Source of the DNA: Anabaena subtropica FACHB-260
Lineage (GTDB): Bacteria; Cyanobacteriota; Cyanobacteriia; Cyanobacteriales; Nostocaceae
Reading direction: 5' to 3'
Assembly (NCBI RefSeq): GCF_014697105.1
Contig: NZ_JACJRF010000035.1
Span: 1-57,937, forward strand
Length of the DNA: 57,937 nt
Of this stretch, positions 34,727-54,310 are shown in pieces (within the stretch, counting starts at the first letter, position 1; each line of letters opens with the position of its first letter). A program made the position numbers and the translations under genes. Below the pieces are notes generated by a model. It worked only from the letters and a program-made list of their open reading frames with translations, did no database searches and had not been told where the DNA came from.

Positions 34727-35584
34727 TCATCCTTGATTCATTCTTTGCGATGGTGGTAAAACTACTTTCTTCGCTAAACCCAAAGTTTGCAACAGTTTAA
34801 TACTCCACCAAGTGACATCAATTTCCCACCATTGGAACCCAGCTTTTGCTACATTGGGGTAAGTATGATGGTTGTTGTGCCAACCTTCGCCGTAAGTAAC
34901 GATAGATACCCACCACAAATTACGAGCATCATCGTCAGCATCAAAGGTGCGATAACCCCACATATGGGTTGCAGAGTTGACAAACCAAGTGGAGTGCCAT
35001 AGTAACACTGCTCTCAGAATTACACCATAAATCACAAAAGACCATCCTCCCACGGCGTAAAGCAGCAATGCTAAAGGAATTTGCATCAACAGGAAGTAAC
35101 GATCTAACCAACGATAGAAAGGTTGTCTTGCTAAATCAGGCGCATACTTTTGATAGATTTCATAGTCAAAAAATTCAGACCGGGGATATAGAATCCACTG
35201 CATATGGCTCCACCAAAATCCCCGCTTGGAAGAATAAGGATCTAGATTGACATCTTCGGTGTAAGCGTGATGCTGGCGGTGTCCCCCAATCCAAAAAATC
35301 GGCCCTCCTTGCATAGCTAATGCTCCGATAATGGCGATCGCATATTCCAACCATTTGGGTACTTGAAAACTCTTGTGACTAAGTAATCTGTGATACCCAA
35401 GGCAAATGCCAATGCTGCCAAACAACCAGTGGAGAAACAACAGCAAACCCAATGCTAACCAGGAAAAAAACCAAGGAGCCAACAAAGCTAGAGCGTGAAC
35501 GGTTGTAAAAAACGCCACATTTGACCAGCTGAGGCGCAATGACTTCTTCCCCTCAGGGGCAATTGCCAGATGTTTTACGGTCAT
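34727..35584 (-). CDS. desC: Delta-9 acyl-lipid fatty acid desaturase
   Basis: A 285-residue membrane desaturase that introduces the first double bond (C9) into lipid-linked fatty acids. The three di-iron histidine boxes are complete: HRLLSH (H65, H70), HRQHH (H102, H105, H106) and WHNNHH near residue 240. Four hydrophobic stretches match the family. The N-terminal extension and GEGWHNNHHTYP box are typical of cyanobacterial DesC. It is transcribed away from the TetR gene across 269 bases, which makes that regulator a candidate controller. Cyanobacteria often have two DesC paralogues; which one this is cannot be told here. Confidence 0.92.
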   Translation of the reverse strand: MTVKHLAIAPEGKKSLRLSWSNVAFFTTVHALALLAPWFFSWLALGLLLFLHWLFGSIGICLGYHRLLSHKSFQVPKWLEYAIAIIGALAMQGGPIFWIGGHRQHHAYTEDVNLDPYSSKRGFWWSHMQWILYPRSEFFDYEIYQKYAPDLARQPFYRWLDRYFLLMQIPLALLLYAVGGWSFVIYGVILRAVLLWHSTWFVNSATHMWGYRTFDADDDARNLWWVSIVTYGEGWHNNHHTYPNVAKAGFQWWEIDVTWWSIKLLQTLGLAKKVVLPPSQRMNQG

Positions 35585-35781
35585 AAAAATTCCTAATTAA
35601 TAGATCAGGTTGCGATTTGCTCTTGTACCTGGTGCATCATACCAATTCAAAATACCCTGCGGGAAGCAAGCTACAAAATTATCGGGCATCAGATTTAATC
35701 AGGATTGCTGGTTTTGCTTCTGGTGCTTGATTTTGCAGAATTGATATGACTCATATAGACCTATGCGTTACAGTAAATTAG

Positions 35782-35798
35782 AGCAAGTATCACTTACA
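35782..35798. promoter_or_regulatory. Candidate TetR operator, upstream copy
   Basis: AGCAAGT-ATC-ACTTACA, an imperfect palindrome matching the second copy at 35828-35846 in 14 of 17 bases. Their centres are 47 bases apart. It lies in the desC/TetR intergenic region, nearer the TetR gene. Autoregulation is inferred. Confidence 0.55.
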
Positions 35799-35827
35799 TT
35801 TGATATCCTAGCACTTCTCTTTTTTCT

Positions 35828-35846
35828 ATGCAAGTAGCACTTGCAT
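35828..35846. promoter_or_regulatory. Candidate TetR operator, start-proximal copy
   Basis: ATGCAAGTAGCACTTGCAT is a perfect palindrome (8-bp arms, 3-base centre) ending 7 bases before the ATG at 35854. Its position would block transcription or ribosome loading when bound. TetR-family repressors commonly bind such palindromes near their own start. Confidence 0.65.
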
Positions 35847-35853
35847 TTTGTCT

Positions 35854-37068
35854 ATGGCCACTCAACCTCTTTCAACTCGCAAACGCTTGATTCAAGCTGC
35901 ATTAGAGTTATTTACTGCTCAGGGAGTCAGTGCCACTACCACCCGCCAAATTGCTGAAAAAGCAGCAGTTAATGAAGTGACCTTGTTCCGCAATTTTGGT
36001 AATAAACATGGACTGCTTTTGGCTGTTTTAGAAGAATCAGCCGCTTTTACAAATTTAGGTGAATCTCTCGTACAACGGGCAACACCTCCAGGCAATGTTT
36101 ACCAAGCCTTAAAAGACTATGCAAGTGATAGCTTACAGGCTTTGGAAAGAGTGCCAGAGTTAGTTAGGTCTGTAGTCGGTGAAGCCGACCAATTTCCGGC
36201 AGAGAATCGCCGTGCTTTGGGACGGGGACTAACGGAAGCTAACCGCTATGTAGCCCAATATCTGGCCACTGTAATTCAACAGGGAGACTTAAACACCTAT
36301 CTACCCGCAGAAAAATTAGCTAGTTTACTCAATGGGATGATTTTGGGATATGCCGTCATCGAATTCACCAGCGAATTTCATCAATTGTGGGAAAGTAGGG
36401 ATGATTTTCTGGAAAATTTGGTGGAGTTATTTCTGCACGGGGCGATGTCACCCGCAACCAATATAGAAAGAAAAGTTATTACTCAAGAAGTAGCTGATTT
36501 ACCTGCTGCATTAGTTCACGAAATCCTCCGACAAGCTAGAAAGTCAGGAGTACAAGATTATGCAATTGCATACGTTTTATTTGCTGCTGGTTTATCTGCG
36601 ACAGAAATAGTTAATTTACAACGCAATCAGCAAATCTACGACTCTCACGGACACTTTCTACAAATTATCATCCCCAGATTTGTCCGCCAAGTCCCCGTCA
36701 ATCAGTGGATTTTGGGTAAACGCTATGGTTCTTACACCGACAATCCTTTAACTAAATGGCTGAAAAGTCGTAAAGATAATTATGCTGCCATGTTTATCAA
36801 TACAGCAGGTGAGCCAATTTCTGAATCTGAAGTTTTAGCATATTGGCAAGCATGGACTCAAGCCTTATTAACTCCCCAGGGAAAACTACCGGAAATCAAC
36901 CAAGCACAACATACCTGGCGTGTAGAAATGTTAATGCGGGGGATGAGTCTAGAAAATTTAAGCATCATCACAGCTTGCGATCGCACTCAGTTACAACTCT
37001 ACGCCCACAGGGCTAAGGAAAAAGCGGCTCTTGAACAAGCAACTCGTTTGGATCAAAAACCAGGCTAA
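35854..37068 (+). CDS. TetR-family regulator fused to a degenerate tyrosine-recombinase-like domain
   Basis: 404 residues from the ATG at 35854 (a TTG two codons upstream is less likely). The TetR DNA-binding domain (about 8-55) shows RLIQAALELFTAQGVSATTT, RQIAEKAAVNEVTLFRNFGN. A TetR ligand/dimer region runs to about 205. The C-terminal ~190 residues are not part of TetR. They resemble the tyrosine-recombinase core: AYVLFAAGLSATEIVNL aligns with the Arg-I motif (Arg replaced by Ser248), QHTWRVEML gives HxxR (H353, R356), and LQLYAHR gives the Tyr position (Y383), but the second His is lost. Thus likely non-catalytic, perhaps DNA binding. Divergent from desC. Confidence 0.78.
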   Translation: MATQPLSTRKRLIQAALELFTAQGVSATTTRQIAEKAAVNEVTLFRNFGNKHGLLLAVLEESAAFTNLGESLVQRATPPGNVYQALKDYASDSLQALERVPELVRSVVGEADQFPAENRRALGRGLTEANRYVAQYLATVIQQGDLNTYLPAEKLASLLNGMILGYAVIEFTSEFHQLWESRDDFLENLVELFLHGAMSPATNIERKVITQEVADLPAALVHEILRQARKSGVQDYAIAYVLFAAGLSATEIVNLQRNQQIYDSHGHFLQIIIPRFVRQVPVNQWILGKRYGSYTDNPLTKWLKSRKDNYAAMFINTAGEPISESEVLAYWQAWTQALLTPQGKLPEINQAQHTWRVEMLMRGMSLENLSIITACDRTQLQLYAHRAKEKAALEQATRLDQKPG

Positions 37069-51164: not shown

Positions 51165-51755
51165 ATGATTATTACTGTAGCGGCCTTCAAAGGCGGTGTC
51201 GGTAAATCTACGACTGCACTGCACCTAGCTACTTACCTCCAGAAAAAAGCTGACACACTGTTAGTAGATGGCGATTTAAACCGCAGTGCTTTAGATTGGT
51301 CAAATCGGGGCTGTTTGCCCTTTAAAGTAGCTGATGAACAGCAGGGAGTTAATCTGGCAAAACTTTATGAACATATAGTCATCGATACACCAGCCCGTCC
51401 AGATGCGGAAGAACTCAAAACTCTAGCGAAAGGATGTGATTTGTTAGTAATACCAACAACTCCAGATGCGATCGCTTTAGCTGCTACGTTGCACATGGTT
51501 GATCTGCTGAAAAAAAATAAAAGTAAGTATAAAATTTTACTTACTATCATTCCCCCAAATCCTAATAAAGCAGGAGAGGAAGCAAGAACAACTCTCTTAA
51601 ATGCAGAACTACCCGTATTCAAATCAGGAATTCGCCGCTTAGCTGTGTTTCAACGTGCTGCTTTAGAAGGTATTCCAGTTAATGCGGTCAAAGACCCTTA
51701 CGCCCAAATTGCTTGGCGATGTTACGCCGAGGTTGGTAAGGAAATATTAAACTAA
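51165..51755 (+). CDS. ParA-family partition ATPase (short, type Ib-like)
   Basis: A 196-residue deviant-Walker ATPase: FKGGVGKSTTALHLA (both lysines present), LLVDGDLNRSALDW, VIDTPARPD and LLVIPTTPDAIALAA. The short length without an N-terminal HTH is like plasmid ParA/ParF proteins that pair with a ribbon-helix-helix DNA-binding partner. It precedes such a gene by 28 bases. On a chromosome it could be a leftover plasmid partition cassette or position another cargo. Confidence 0.88.
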   Translation: MIITVAAFKGGVGKSTTALHLATYLQKKADTLLVDGDLNRSALDWSNRGCLPFKVADEQQGVNLAKLYEHIVIDTPARPDAEELKTLAKGCDLLVIPTTPDAIALAATLHMVDLLKKNKSKYKILLTIIPPNPNKAGEEARTTLLNAELPVFKSGIRRLAVFQRAALEGIPVNAVKDPYAQIAWRCYAEVGKEILN

Positions 51756-52846: not shown

Positions 52847-54310
52847 ATGTCTCAGAAAGAATCAAATAATTTTGTCCCACATAAATCACAATGGGACGGT
52901 ACACCAATCGAGGAATGGGAGCCTTCTAAATGGAAGCAATGGAAGGCTAAACAAGCCGATGAACAAGCCAAAATGGAACGGGAATATCTCCGCATTAAAT
53001 ACGCGATTCAGCAGGCTAACACGGCATTAAATTTAGATAGGGTTAAAATTAAACTTAAACTGACTAGCTCTAAAACTATAGGTCTACAAGGTACTTTTCC
53101 GTGTAGACCTGGTGATGTTGGTAAAAAGGGTAGTCCTAACAAACAATATACTATTTCTTGCGGCTTTACGGCTAATGATTCTGGCGTAAAAATGGCTGTT
53201 TTGAAAGCACGAGAATTAGATTTATTGTTAATTACGAAACAATTTCAATGGACACCAGAATTACTAGGTAAACAGGCACAAAAAATAGAATTATCAATTG
53301 AAAAAACTTCGGGAAAATTGATTAGTGAATTAATTCAAGAATATGAGCATGATTTTTGGAAAACTCATGAGTCAAATAGACGAGGGATTCGGACATGGGA
53401 AACTCATTACATGAGACATCTAAAAAAACTGCCTCAAGATTTACCAATATCTGCCAAAGCATTAGAAATAGCTTTAGAAAAGACTAAGCCTAATACATCG
53501 GCTAGGTTTTTTATGGTATGGCAATTAAAGAAGTTCTGCGAGTTTTGTGGAATTGATGATTTTAAAACAATTTATGCTTATGCGACTCCTAAGCCTCATC
53601 CAACTATCCGTAAGGTTCCTTCAGATGAGGAAATTGTCCAAGGTTTCGATAAGATTGGTATGCCTTTATCAACCTACACTAGCAAAGATAACACTACACA
53701 ACCAGAACAATGGCAATGGGTTTATGGAATGTTGGCTACCTATGGTTTAAGACCTCATGAATTATTTGCGGTAGATATCGAAGCTTTTATTAATCCTAGT
53801 AATACTTTTCATTTAGTAAGTTTAAATCCTAGTTTGACAGAAGGGACTAAAACTGGTGAACGGAGTTGTGGTATTCCACCACTGTATCCTCATTGGGTAG
53901 ATTTATTTAAGTTGAAAAATATTCGCCTGCCTTATAACGAAGGTAAGTTGAACAATAAAACAGCAAAGCTGCAAACCAGATTTAGAAATGCAGAAATAGG
54001 CTTTAGACCCTATGATTTACGTCATGCCTATGCTATACGTGGTCATCGTTTACGAATGCCTATAAAGACTATGGCGGATTATATGGGACATACTGTCCAA
54101 GAGCATACTAAAACTTATCAAAGATGGATGAATGAGGACACTAATTTAGCGATTTATAAAGAGGTAGTTATTCACAAACAAGGTACGACAAAGGAGGCAA
54201 TGAAAGAAAGAATCAATGAATTAGAAGCTGAAAATCTAGCTCTCAAAGCTGAAAACGCCACACTTAAAAGTTTATTAGTACAACATCAATTGGGTGAATT
54301 ACTGAGTTAA
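52847..54310 (+). CDS. XisA/XisC-type tyrosine recombinase
   Basis: A 487-residue site-specific recombinase resembling XisA and XisC, which excise the nifD and hupL elements during heterocyst development. The N-terminal DNA-binding half has KLKLTSSKTIGLQGTFPCRPG and QYTISCGF. Catalytic residues: R302 (GLRPHELF), Y389 and R392 (PYDLRHAYAIR; Tyr replaces His of HxxR, as reported for XisA/XisC), H415 (MGHTVQEHTK) and nucleophile Y424 (TYQRW). A C-terminal leucine-zipper helix (INELEAENLALKAENATLK) follows. No interrupted gene is visible in the window. Confidence 0.88.
   Translation: MSQKESNNFVPHKSQWDGTPIEEWEPSKWKQWKAKQADEQAKMEREYLRIKYAIQQANTALNLDRVKIKLKLTSSKTIGLQGTFPCRPGDVGKKGSPNKQYTISCGFTANDSGVKMAVLKARELDLLLITKQFQWTPELLGKQAQKIELSIEKTSGKLISELIQEYEHDFWKTHESNRRGIRTWETHYMRHLKKLPQDLPISAKALEIALEKTKPNTSARFFMVWQLKKFCEFCGIDDFKTIYAYATPKPHPTIRKVPSDEEIVQGFDKIGMPLSTYTSKDNTTQPEQWQWVYGMLATYGLRPHELFAVDIEAFINPSNTFHLVSLNPSLTEGTKTGERSCGIPPLYPHWVDLFKLKNIRLPYNEGKLNNKTAKLQTRFRNAEIGFRPYDLRHAYAIRGHRLRMPIKTMADYMGHTVQEHTKTYQRWMNEDTNLAIYKEVVIHKQGTTKEAMKERINELEAENLALKAENATLKSLLVQHQLGELLS

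Follow-up and report, generated by a model that had tools for sequence, protein, structure and literature searches.

A TetR-type regulator beside desC carries a tyrosine-recombinase fold with its catalytic residues largely lost

A protein of 404 amino acids from Anabaena subtropica FACHB-260 joins a TetR-type regulator to the catalytic fold of a tyrosine recombinase (YR), stripped of nearly all the residues with which such enzymes cut DNA. Its gene occupies 35854..37068 on the + strand of the window (the whole stretch of DNA analyzed, 57,937 nucleotides: contig C34 of a 5.8-Mb genome, with Nostoc and Anabaena species as its best relatives). On balance we favor the view that this is an autoregulated TetR repressor of the adjacent gene, which we take to be desC, and that the dead YR domain is a tethered module that grips DNA or bridges dimers on paired operators. 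An earlier note on this DNA had suggested that the core of a recombinase was recycled within the repressor adjacent to desC; fold, profile and conservation all support that idea, and the observation holds in most of its parts.

One frame, two protein families

The open reading frame begins with an ATG at 35854, with an in-frame TTG ahead of it at 35848. Both of the parts that define a TetR-family regulator are recognized by Pfam in the N-terminal half: a helix-turn-helix (TetR_N, PF00440, E 4.3e-14; residues 12-58, 35887..36027, +) and a helical C-terminal ligand/dimer domain (TetR_C_7, PF14246, 25.7 bits against a cut-off of 22, E 1.2e-5; residues 99-194, 36148..36435, +). A linker follows (residues 200-212, 36451..36489, +), its residues 201-209 modeled with low confidence in the full-length structure; across the family of fusions it varies between 4 and 74 residues. 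The remainder of the protein, residues 213-402 (36490..37059, +; modeled as residues 208-404), is assigned to the catalytically dead YR domain by profile, fold and alignment. In the standard profile libraries, the Phage_integrase match to residues 221-374 is sub-threshold (22.5 bits against a gathering score of 27.1, Pfam), and the XerC match (6e-5, NCBIfam) is far below cut-off. With the two TetR domains in front and the Phage_integrase match behind them in a single 404-residue frame, the reading of the gene as a TetR regulator with a recombinase-like C-terminal half stands. In the rest of the window's genome the C-terminal domain does not recur at E <=10, either fused or free-standing, and three distant TetR paralogues are found at E <=0.001.

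The fold of the C-terminal half

Tyrosine recombinases clamp DNA, and their core-binding domain closes the clamp. That the C-terminal ~190 residues of the fusion adopt the catalytic part of this fold is shown by three comparisons. 1) The AlphaFold2 model of the isolated domain (pLDDT 94.6, pTM 0.90), compared with the PDB by Foldseek, retrieves tyrosine recombinases as 50 of the 50 among the matches listed, with XerA (5hxy, E 4.6e-8) as the best. 2) A profile, A2, made of 44 homologous C-terminal domains finds the Xer-like protein 4a8e among PDB sequences at E 3.6e-9; seven of its nine matches at E <=1 are YRs, and the non-YR pair lies at E 0.27 and 0.44. 3) Aligned by hhalign with 18 YR frames of phylum genomes (292-388 aa; sampling is described below), the domain scores 99.5%, E 6.6e-22, a result that is not independent of the phylum-genome search with A2, because these frames were fetched from among its weaker matches. 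The earlier note had named the catalytic-core fold as the outcome of structure prediction that would bear out its claim, and that fold, rather than an unrelated one, is what appeared; comparing profiles likewise places the relation to YRs beyond chance.

The known proteins nearest in fold and profile, XerA 5hxy, Xer-like 4a8e and XerH 5jk0, share the catalytic domain with the fusion. The fusion differs from Xer recombinases in having no core-binding domain, in having lost the catalytic residues except the tyrosine, and in carrying an extra insert after strand 3. Where YRs have their N-terminal core-binding domain, the fusion has its TetR domains. How the halves are disposed in space is given without confidence by the full-length AlphaFold2 model (pLDDT 85, pTM 0.51).

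A dismantled active site

YRs of the XerC/D type cut DNA with a set of residues designated Arg-I, Lys, His-II, Arg-II and His/Trp-III, together with the nucleophile Tyr. Two alignments, one of A2 with the PDB Xer-like protein and one by hhalign with the 18 YR frames, set the register: S248 stands for Arg-I, N349 for His-II, Q352 for Arg-II, C375 for His-III, and Y383 for the nucleophile. (A technical note: the counts that follow refer to 106 full-length fusions, or to 105 for the downstream columns, since the 3' part of L057 is masked.) Arginine is found at the Arg-I column, Ser248 in the window (36595..36597, +), in one of 106 fusions. The canonical HxxR position is N-Q-A-Q (residues 349-352, 36898..36909, +) and has lost both catalytic residues: no fusion (0/105) has His at column 349, and Arg at column 352 is retained in 5/105. 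Tryptophan stands at column 375 in 12 of the 105. The hairpin lysine is missing from the protein of the window, and any lysine in the hairpin stretch is found in 3/106 rows. Tyr383 (37000..37002, +), in contrast, is present in all 105 homologues, though nearly all of its catalytic partners are gone.

The earlier note had read the serine at Arg-I, the tyrosine at the nucleophile position and the missing second histidine correctly, cysteine 375 standing where that histidine should be. Its HxxR pair, thought to be kept as H353 and R356, was read four residues out of register: H353 aligns with the histidine that follows Arg-II and R356 with an alanine, and that assignment is rejected. These two columns are variable in the family (His 28 and Gln 72 of 105 at column 353; Arg 62 and Cys 41 of 105 at column 356) and, on a tree of the TetR domains (50 rows), have changed at least 11 and at least 10 times, respectively.

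By these residues, the domain would be a pseudo-recombinase in nearly the whole family. Could it nevertheless be a working recombinase, or a nicking and joining enzyme, with an active site rebuilt around Tyr383? The invariance of the tyrosine and the purifying selection described below speak for such an enzyme, as does the one member, L096 of genome G062, that has Arg-I, Arg-II, Trp-III and Tyr together. The losses recounted above (Arg-I from 105/106, His-II from 105/105 and Arg-II from 100/105 fusions, with the hairpin lysine a rarity) speak against it. So does the position of desC: at all 111 loci compared it lies upstream, is read divergently and gives no sign of inversion, the rearranged locus of genome G449 notwithstanding. 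We consider a surviving enzymatic activity highly improbable. L096, with neither His-II nor a hairpin lysine, is nonetheless where the term "dead" is weakest, since four of the catalytic residues are all present there; the set may be a chance assembly or a remnant of the ancestral site.

Conservation of the dead domain

In eight pairs of homologues, which share members and in some of which dS is near 1, dN/dS amounts to 0.08-0.14 in the C-terminal half and 0.02-0.06 in the TetR half: the C-terminal half evolves faster, yet it is under purifying selection. Twenty-two columns of the domain are invariant over 44 sequences, among them R278, N283, Y291, G292, N297, P298, R306 and F314, and further W331, Q350, T354, W355 and Y383. 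Basic residues are prominent in this pattern, with R278 and R306 invariant and R290, K307, R386 and K390 nearly so.

One could also take the C-terminal half for a decaying remnant without function. Its more rapid evolution would fit decay, and some lineages have lost the domain (at least one of them, probably two or more; see below) and thereby show that it is dispensable. The same dN/dS values and the 22 invariant columns contradict decay, as does the spread of the domain over many families, 41 of the 386 genomes sampled having it; this explanation, too, is hardly credible.

The conservation has a center of its own. Between strand 3 and the next helix lies a family-specific insert of about nine residues (LGKRYGSYT, residues 287-295, 36712..36738, +) that is absent from the Xer proteins compared; it adjoins or includes the invariant R278, N283, Y291, G292, N297 and P298. 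The domain might work off DNA: by binding a partner or a ligand, for example around the QWILGKRYGSYTNNPL insert, it would supply the repressor with a second input. Strong conservation in and beside a feature that Xer proteins lack would suit such a module, as would a tyrosine held invariant when the catalytic residues around it have been lost. The argument is one of position only, however, and neither Pfam nor NCBIfam places a ligand-binding family above cut-off in the C-terminal half. We think this reading unlikely.

Occurrence among cyanobacteria

An even draw of 386 genomes from the phylum contains the C-terminal domain at E <1e-70 in 41 genomes belonging to many families, in frames of 399-496 aa, and in all 41 the TetR part lies in the same frame; the next A2 matches follow at E 4e-9 and weaker. 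The fusion is an old orthologous family, conserved over a wide range of genomes, and this age and breadth make it probable that a fold for cutting DNA has been put to new use in gene regulation. A draw at the level of the class yields matches to the fusion protein at E <=1e-25 in 199 of 388 genomes, not all of them with the C-terminal half. Two genomes of incomplete assembly, G391 (locus L192) and G404 (L226), have the TetR and C-terminal parts in different frames, which may mean a split gene or a sequencing error.

A scan for close relatives, the one search that covered the other phyla, returned 67 loci, all with cyanobacterial titles. In viral contigs no relative of the domain was confirmed by a scan that works from patterns, to which distant relatives may be lost; phage records gave no match; a phage or viral origin of the domain was rejected on these grounds. 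Among 72,556 plasmid records the desaturase-fusion pair is found once, on the mobilizable plasmid pP742403 of Gloeothece citriformis PCC 7424 (L233, NC_011730.1), where it is annotated as a fatty acid desaturase and a TetR/AcrR regulator. Both operators (see the following section) accompany that pair, 47 bp apart, and its neighborhood includes a gene for an orange-carotenoid-protein N-domain and another that is light-harvesting-like. Near its edge the window itself encodes a further integrase-like frame of 487 aa (52847-54310, +), following a ParA-like ATPase (51165-51755); its C-terminus looks YR-like by eye (PYDLRH ... GH ... Y), and it is probably the tyrosine recombinase of a mobile element.

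The desC neighborhood and its paired palindromes

The gene that adjoins the fusion gene and is read divergently from it (34727..35584, -) codes for a fatty acid desaturase of the type that we take to be DesC, presumably the enzyme responsible for the first double bond in the membrane lipids of these phototrophs. It is the probable target. At each of 111 loci, comprising 106 full-length fusions, three TetR-only regulators and two truncated fusions, the neighborhood comparison, which took in five neighbors in the window, finds desC upstream of the regulator and in divergent orientation, its match beginning 80-703 bp away; the loci come from two collections, so that some species may occur twice, and small intervening genes are possible. 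A second set of 47 loci shows the same disposition throughout, with genomes G177 and G332 common to both sets. The adjacency of desC that the earlier note described is borne out, and a linked desaturase gene, as DesT and MadR have, is a constant of the family.

The intergenic region contains two copies of a 17-bp palindrome, TGCAAGT-N3-ACTTGCA, which we regard as candidate operators of the fusion protein. Operator 2 is a perfect copy (TGCAAGT-AGC-ACTTGCA, 35829..35845) ending 8 bp before the fusion ATG; operator 1 (AGCAAGT-ATC-ACTTACA, 35782..35798) has two mismatches and lies 47 bp from it. No other site with <=2 mismatches exists in the window's 57.9 kb. The spacing of the pair is nearly constant: with up to three mismatches allowed per site, the distance between the two operators is 44-53 bp in 105 of the 106 fusion loci (the masked L057 and the truncated L060 were left out, one locus is cut by a contig end, and the distinct sequences number 101), 68 of them at 47 bp, 18 at 46 and 12 at 48, and in L102 the separation is 85 bp. 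In the second set, pairs at 42-58 bp are found in 40 of 40 fusion loci. Genome-wide, 31 palindrome sites have <=2 mismatches, compared with 10 for a reversed control pattern; at <=1 mismatch only one further place comes up beyond the locus (L146, G000:C17:152663), upstream of a gene that by eye is saccharopine-dehydrogenase-like. With this single additional site, a wider regulon was rejected.

One locus presents the pair in another setting: at L220 (genome G449) the order is rearranged to fusion gene, two perfect operators 48 bp apart, and desC, all in the same direction. One TGA interrupts the match to the fusion there. That these operators stand just before desC is an indication of which gene they serve, desC being the target to which they point.

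Around the palindromes, two more sequence elements are recurrent. ATCCTAGCA (35805..35813), the local form of A...YTAACA in relatives, lies between the operators, ahead of operator 2 and at a distance from it that hardly varies over 29 diverse loci. TACAGT (35769..35774) is found toward desC from operator 1, 8-18 bp away, in 13 of the 29 loci, against 0.48 expected by shuffling. We infer that both are promoter parts, TACAGT perhaps the -10 region of desC; both occur at the TetR-only locus L112. Alternatively, these elements, which flank operator 1, could be sites of the C-terminal domain itself: the domain would then be a second sequence-specific reader of DNA, recognizing a site of its own beside the operators or in the space between them. 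A fold that is by nature a DNA clamp, with its invariant and near-invariant basic residues (R278 and R306; R290, K307, R386 and K390), would lend itself to such a task, and TnsF provides a precedent for an inactivated YR in a target selector (PMC10293859). Yet both flanking elements look like promoter parts and are present at L112, where the domain is missing, and the core-binding domain that would close the clamp has been replaced by TetR. Specific reading of this kind is accordingly of low likelihood in our judgment.

TetR-only lineages

On a TetR-domain tree of 46 rows, in which the backbone has little resolution and L220, L229 and L232 have long branches, the labels "fusion" and "TetR-only" change three times. 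G011 and G416, TetR-only members of genus g56, are nested among fusions with starred support, for which loss of the domain is the simple reading. TetR-only G550, on a long branch, joins the fusions found in f28, the family to which it belongs (100/100), and its state is likewise most simply taken as loss. The TetR-only genomes of family f27 make up the third group; another family of the same order (G421) has the fusion. From these placements we read loss in at least one of the three lineages, and probably in two or more.

What becomes of the operators when the domain is absent? Seven of the ten TetR-only genomes have one operator and three have two. G550 has one (its next best site has five mismatches), as do six of the seven f27 genomes; the seventh, G423 (L200), has a second site with two mismatches, 49 bp away. 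Both of the g56 genomes examined, G011 and G416, have two operators, 47 bp apart. A clean correlation between loss of the domain and loss of an operator was therefore rejected, the two sites being present in 3/10; the pairs kept by g56 and G423 imply that paired operators do not need the YR domain. The counts fit a link between domain and paired sites weakly.

A proposed mechanism

Palindromes that lie between divergent genes and bind a TetR dimer, with one palindrome just before the regulator's own start codon, make an ordinary autorepressor design, and the scheme that we favor builds on it. The TetR dimer would recognize TGCAAGT-N3-ACTTGCA. Two operators about 47 bp apart would be occupied, the first toward desC and the second 8 bp ahead of the regulator's start codon, and the regulator would repress both the divergent desC and its own gene. 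A ligand, most likely acyl-ACP, acyl-CoA or a free fatty acid reporting the saturation of membranes, would release the repressor. The Xer-like catalytic fold, which presumably no longer cuts DNA, would hang on its flexible linker and most likely grip DNA non-specifically or contact the domain of the neighboring dimer, so that both operators come to be occupied cooperatively. The sequences themselves show the fold, the loss of catalytic residues, the long conservation, the link to desC and the paired palindromes; binding to these sites, repression, the ligand and the part played by the domain are our inference. With a linker of 4-74 residues a rigid arrangement is unlikely; a tethered module that grips DNA or bridges dimers is the best fit to linker, fold and paired sites. 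That the domain may be a DNA-binding or dimerization module, as the earlier note suggested, is plausible, and the paired operators make the idea testable. The spacing of the operators may have a separate origin in promoter geometry, for the distance between operator 2 and a promoter-like element is nearly constant.

A bolder version of this scheme, which we hold to be possible but doubtful, is that an Xer-like domain, its chemistry gone but for the tyrosine, was taken up by a TetR repressor early in the evolution of cyanobacteria and came to couple two dimers across a fixed 46-48 bp, making the control of membrane desaturation switch-like, with lineages that drop the domain tending to drop the second operator.

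Comparison with described proteins

FabR is a member of the TetR family. DesT of Pseudomonas aeruginosa, FabR, and MadR of mycobacteria are repressors of fatty acid desaturase genes that bind acyl-CoAs (PMC8872791); with acyl-CoA-responsive repressors of desaturases known, lipid sensing is the natural guess for the fusion. They resemble it in being TetR-type repressors with a desaturase target (predicted, for the fusion); the descriptions consulted mention no recombinase domain, and the fusion is set apart by its divergent pairing with desC. PfsR (sll1392) of Synechocystis is a TetR autoregulator, as the fusion is predicted to be, and also cyanobacterial; at 203 aa it has no such C-terminal domain and was rejected as the same protein (PMC4092027).

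For the other half, TnsF of the Tn6022-like Tn7 transposons offers a close analogy in being a bacterial protein with an inactivated YR domain, there a selector of DNA targets. TnsF has N-terminal zinc fingers, serves transposon targeting and is missing the chamber that holds the catalytic Tyr (PMC10293859), whereas the fusion has TetR domains, has kept the Tyr and would act in gene regulation. Pfam finds no zinc finger in the N-terminus of the fusion, where the TetR domains lie. Crypton-derived host genes are eukaryotic and have other partners. They are nonetheless reported as a case of YR-encoding transposon genes reused by the host (PMC3212892).

Both halves of the protein are of a known kind. 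Their combination, in its fixed genetic setting, is undescribed in the literature as far as we have searched it, and no account of the fusion, or of a desC regulator of such a kind, was found in that search of open-access papers.

Implications

One can think of the fusion as what looks like a bacterial recombinase fold long kept within a transcription factor after its catalysis was lost. A candidate regulator and a candidate operator can now be named for desC. With a likely target gene, likely operators and natural lineages that have lost the domain all at hand, the purpose of a dead recombinase domain becomes directly testable.
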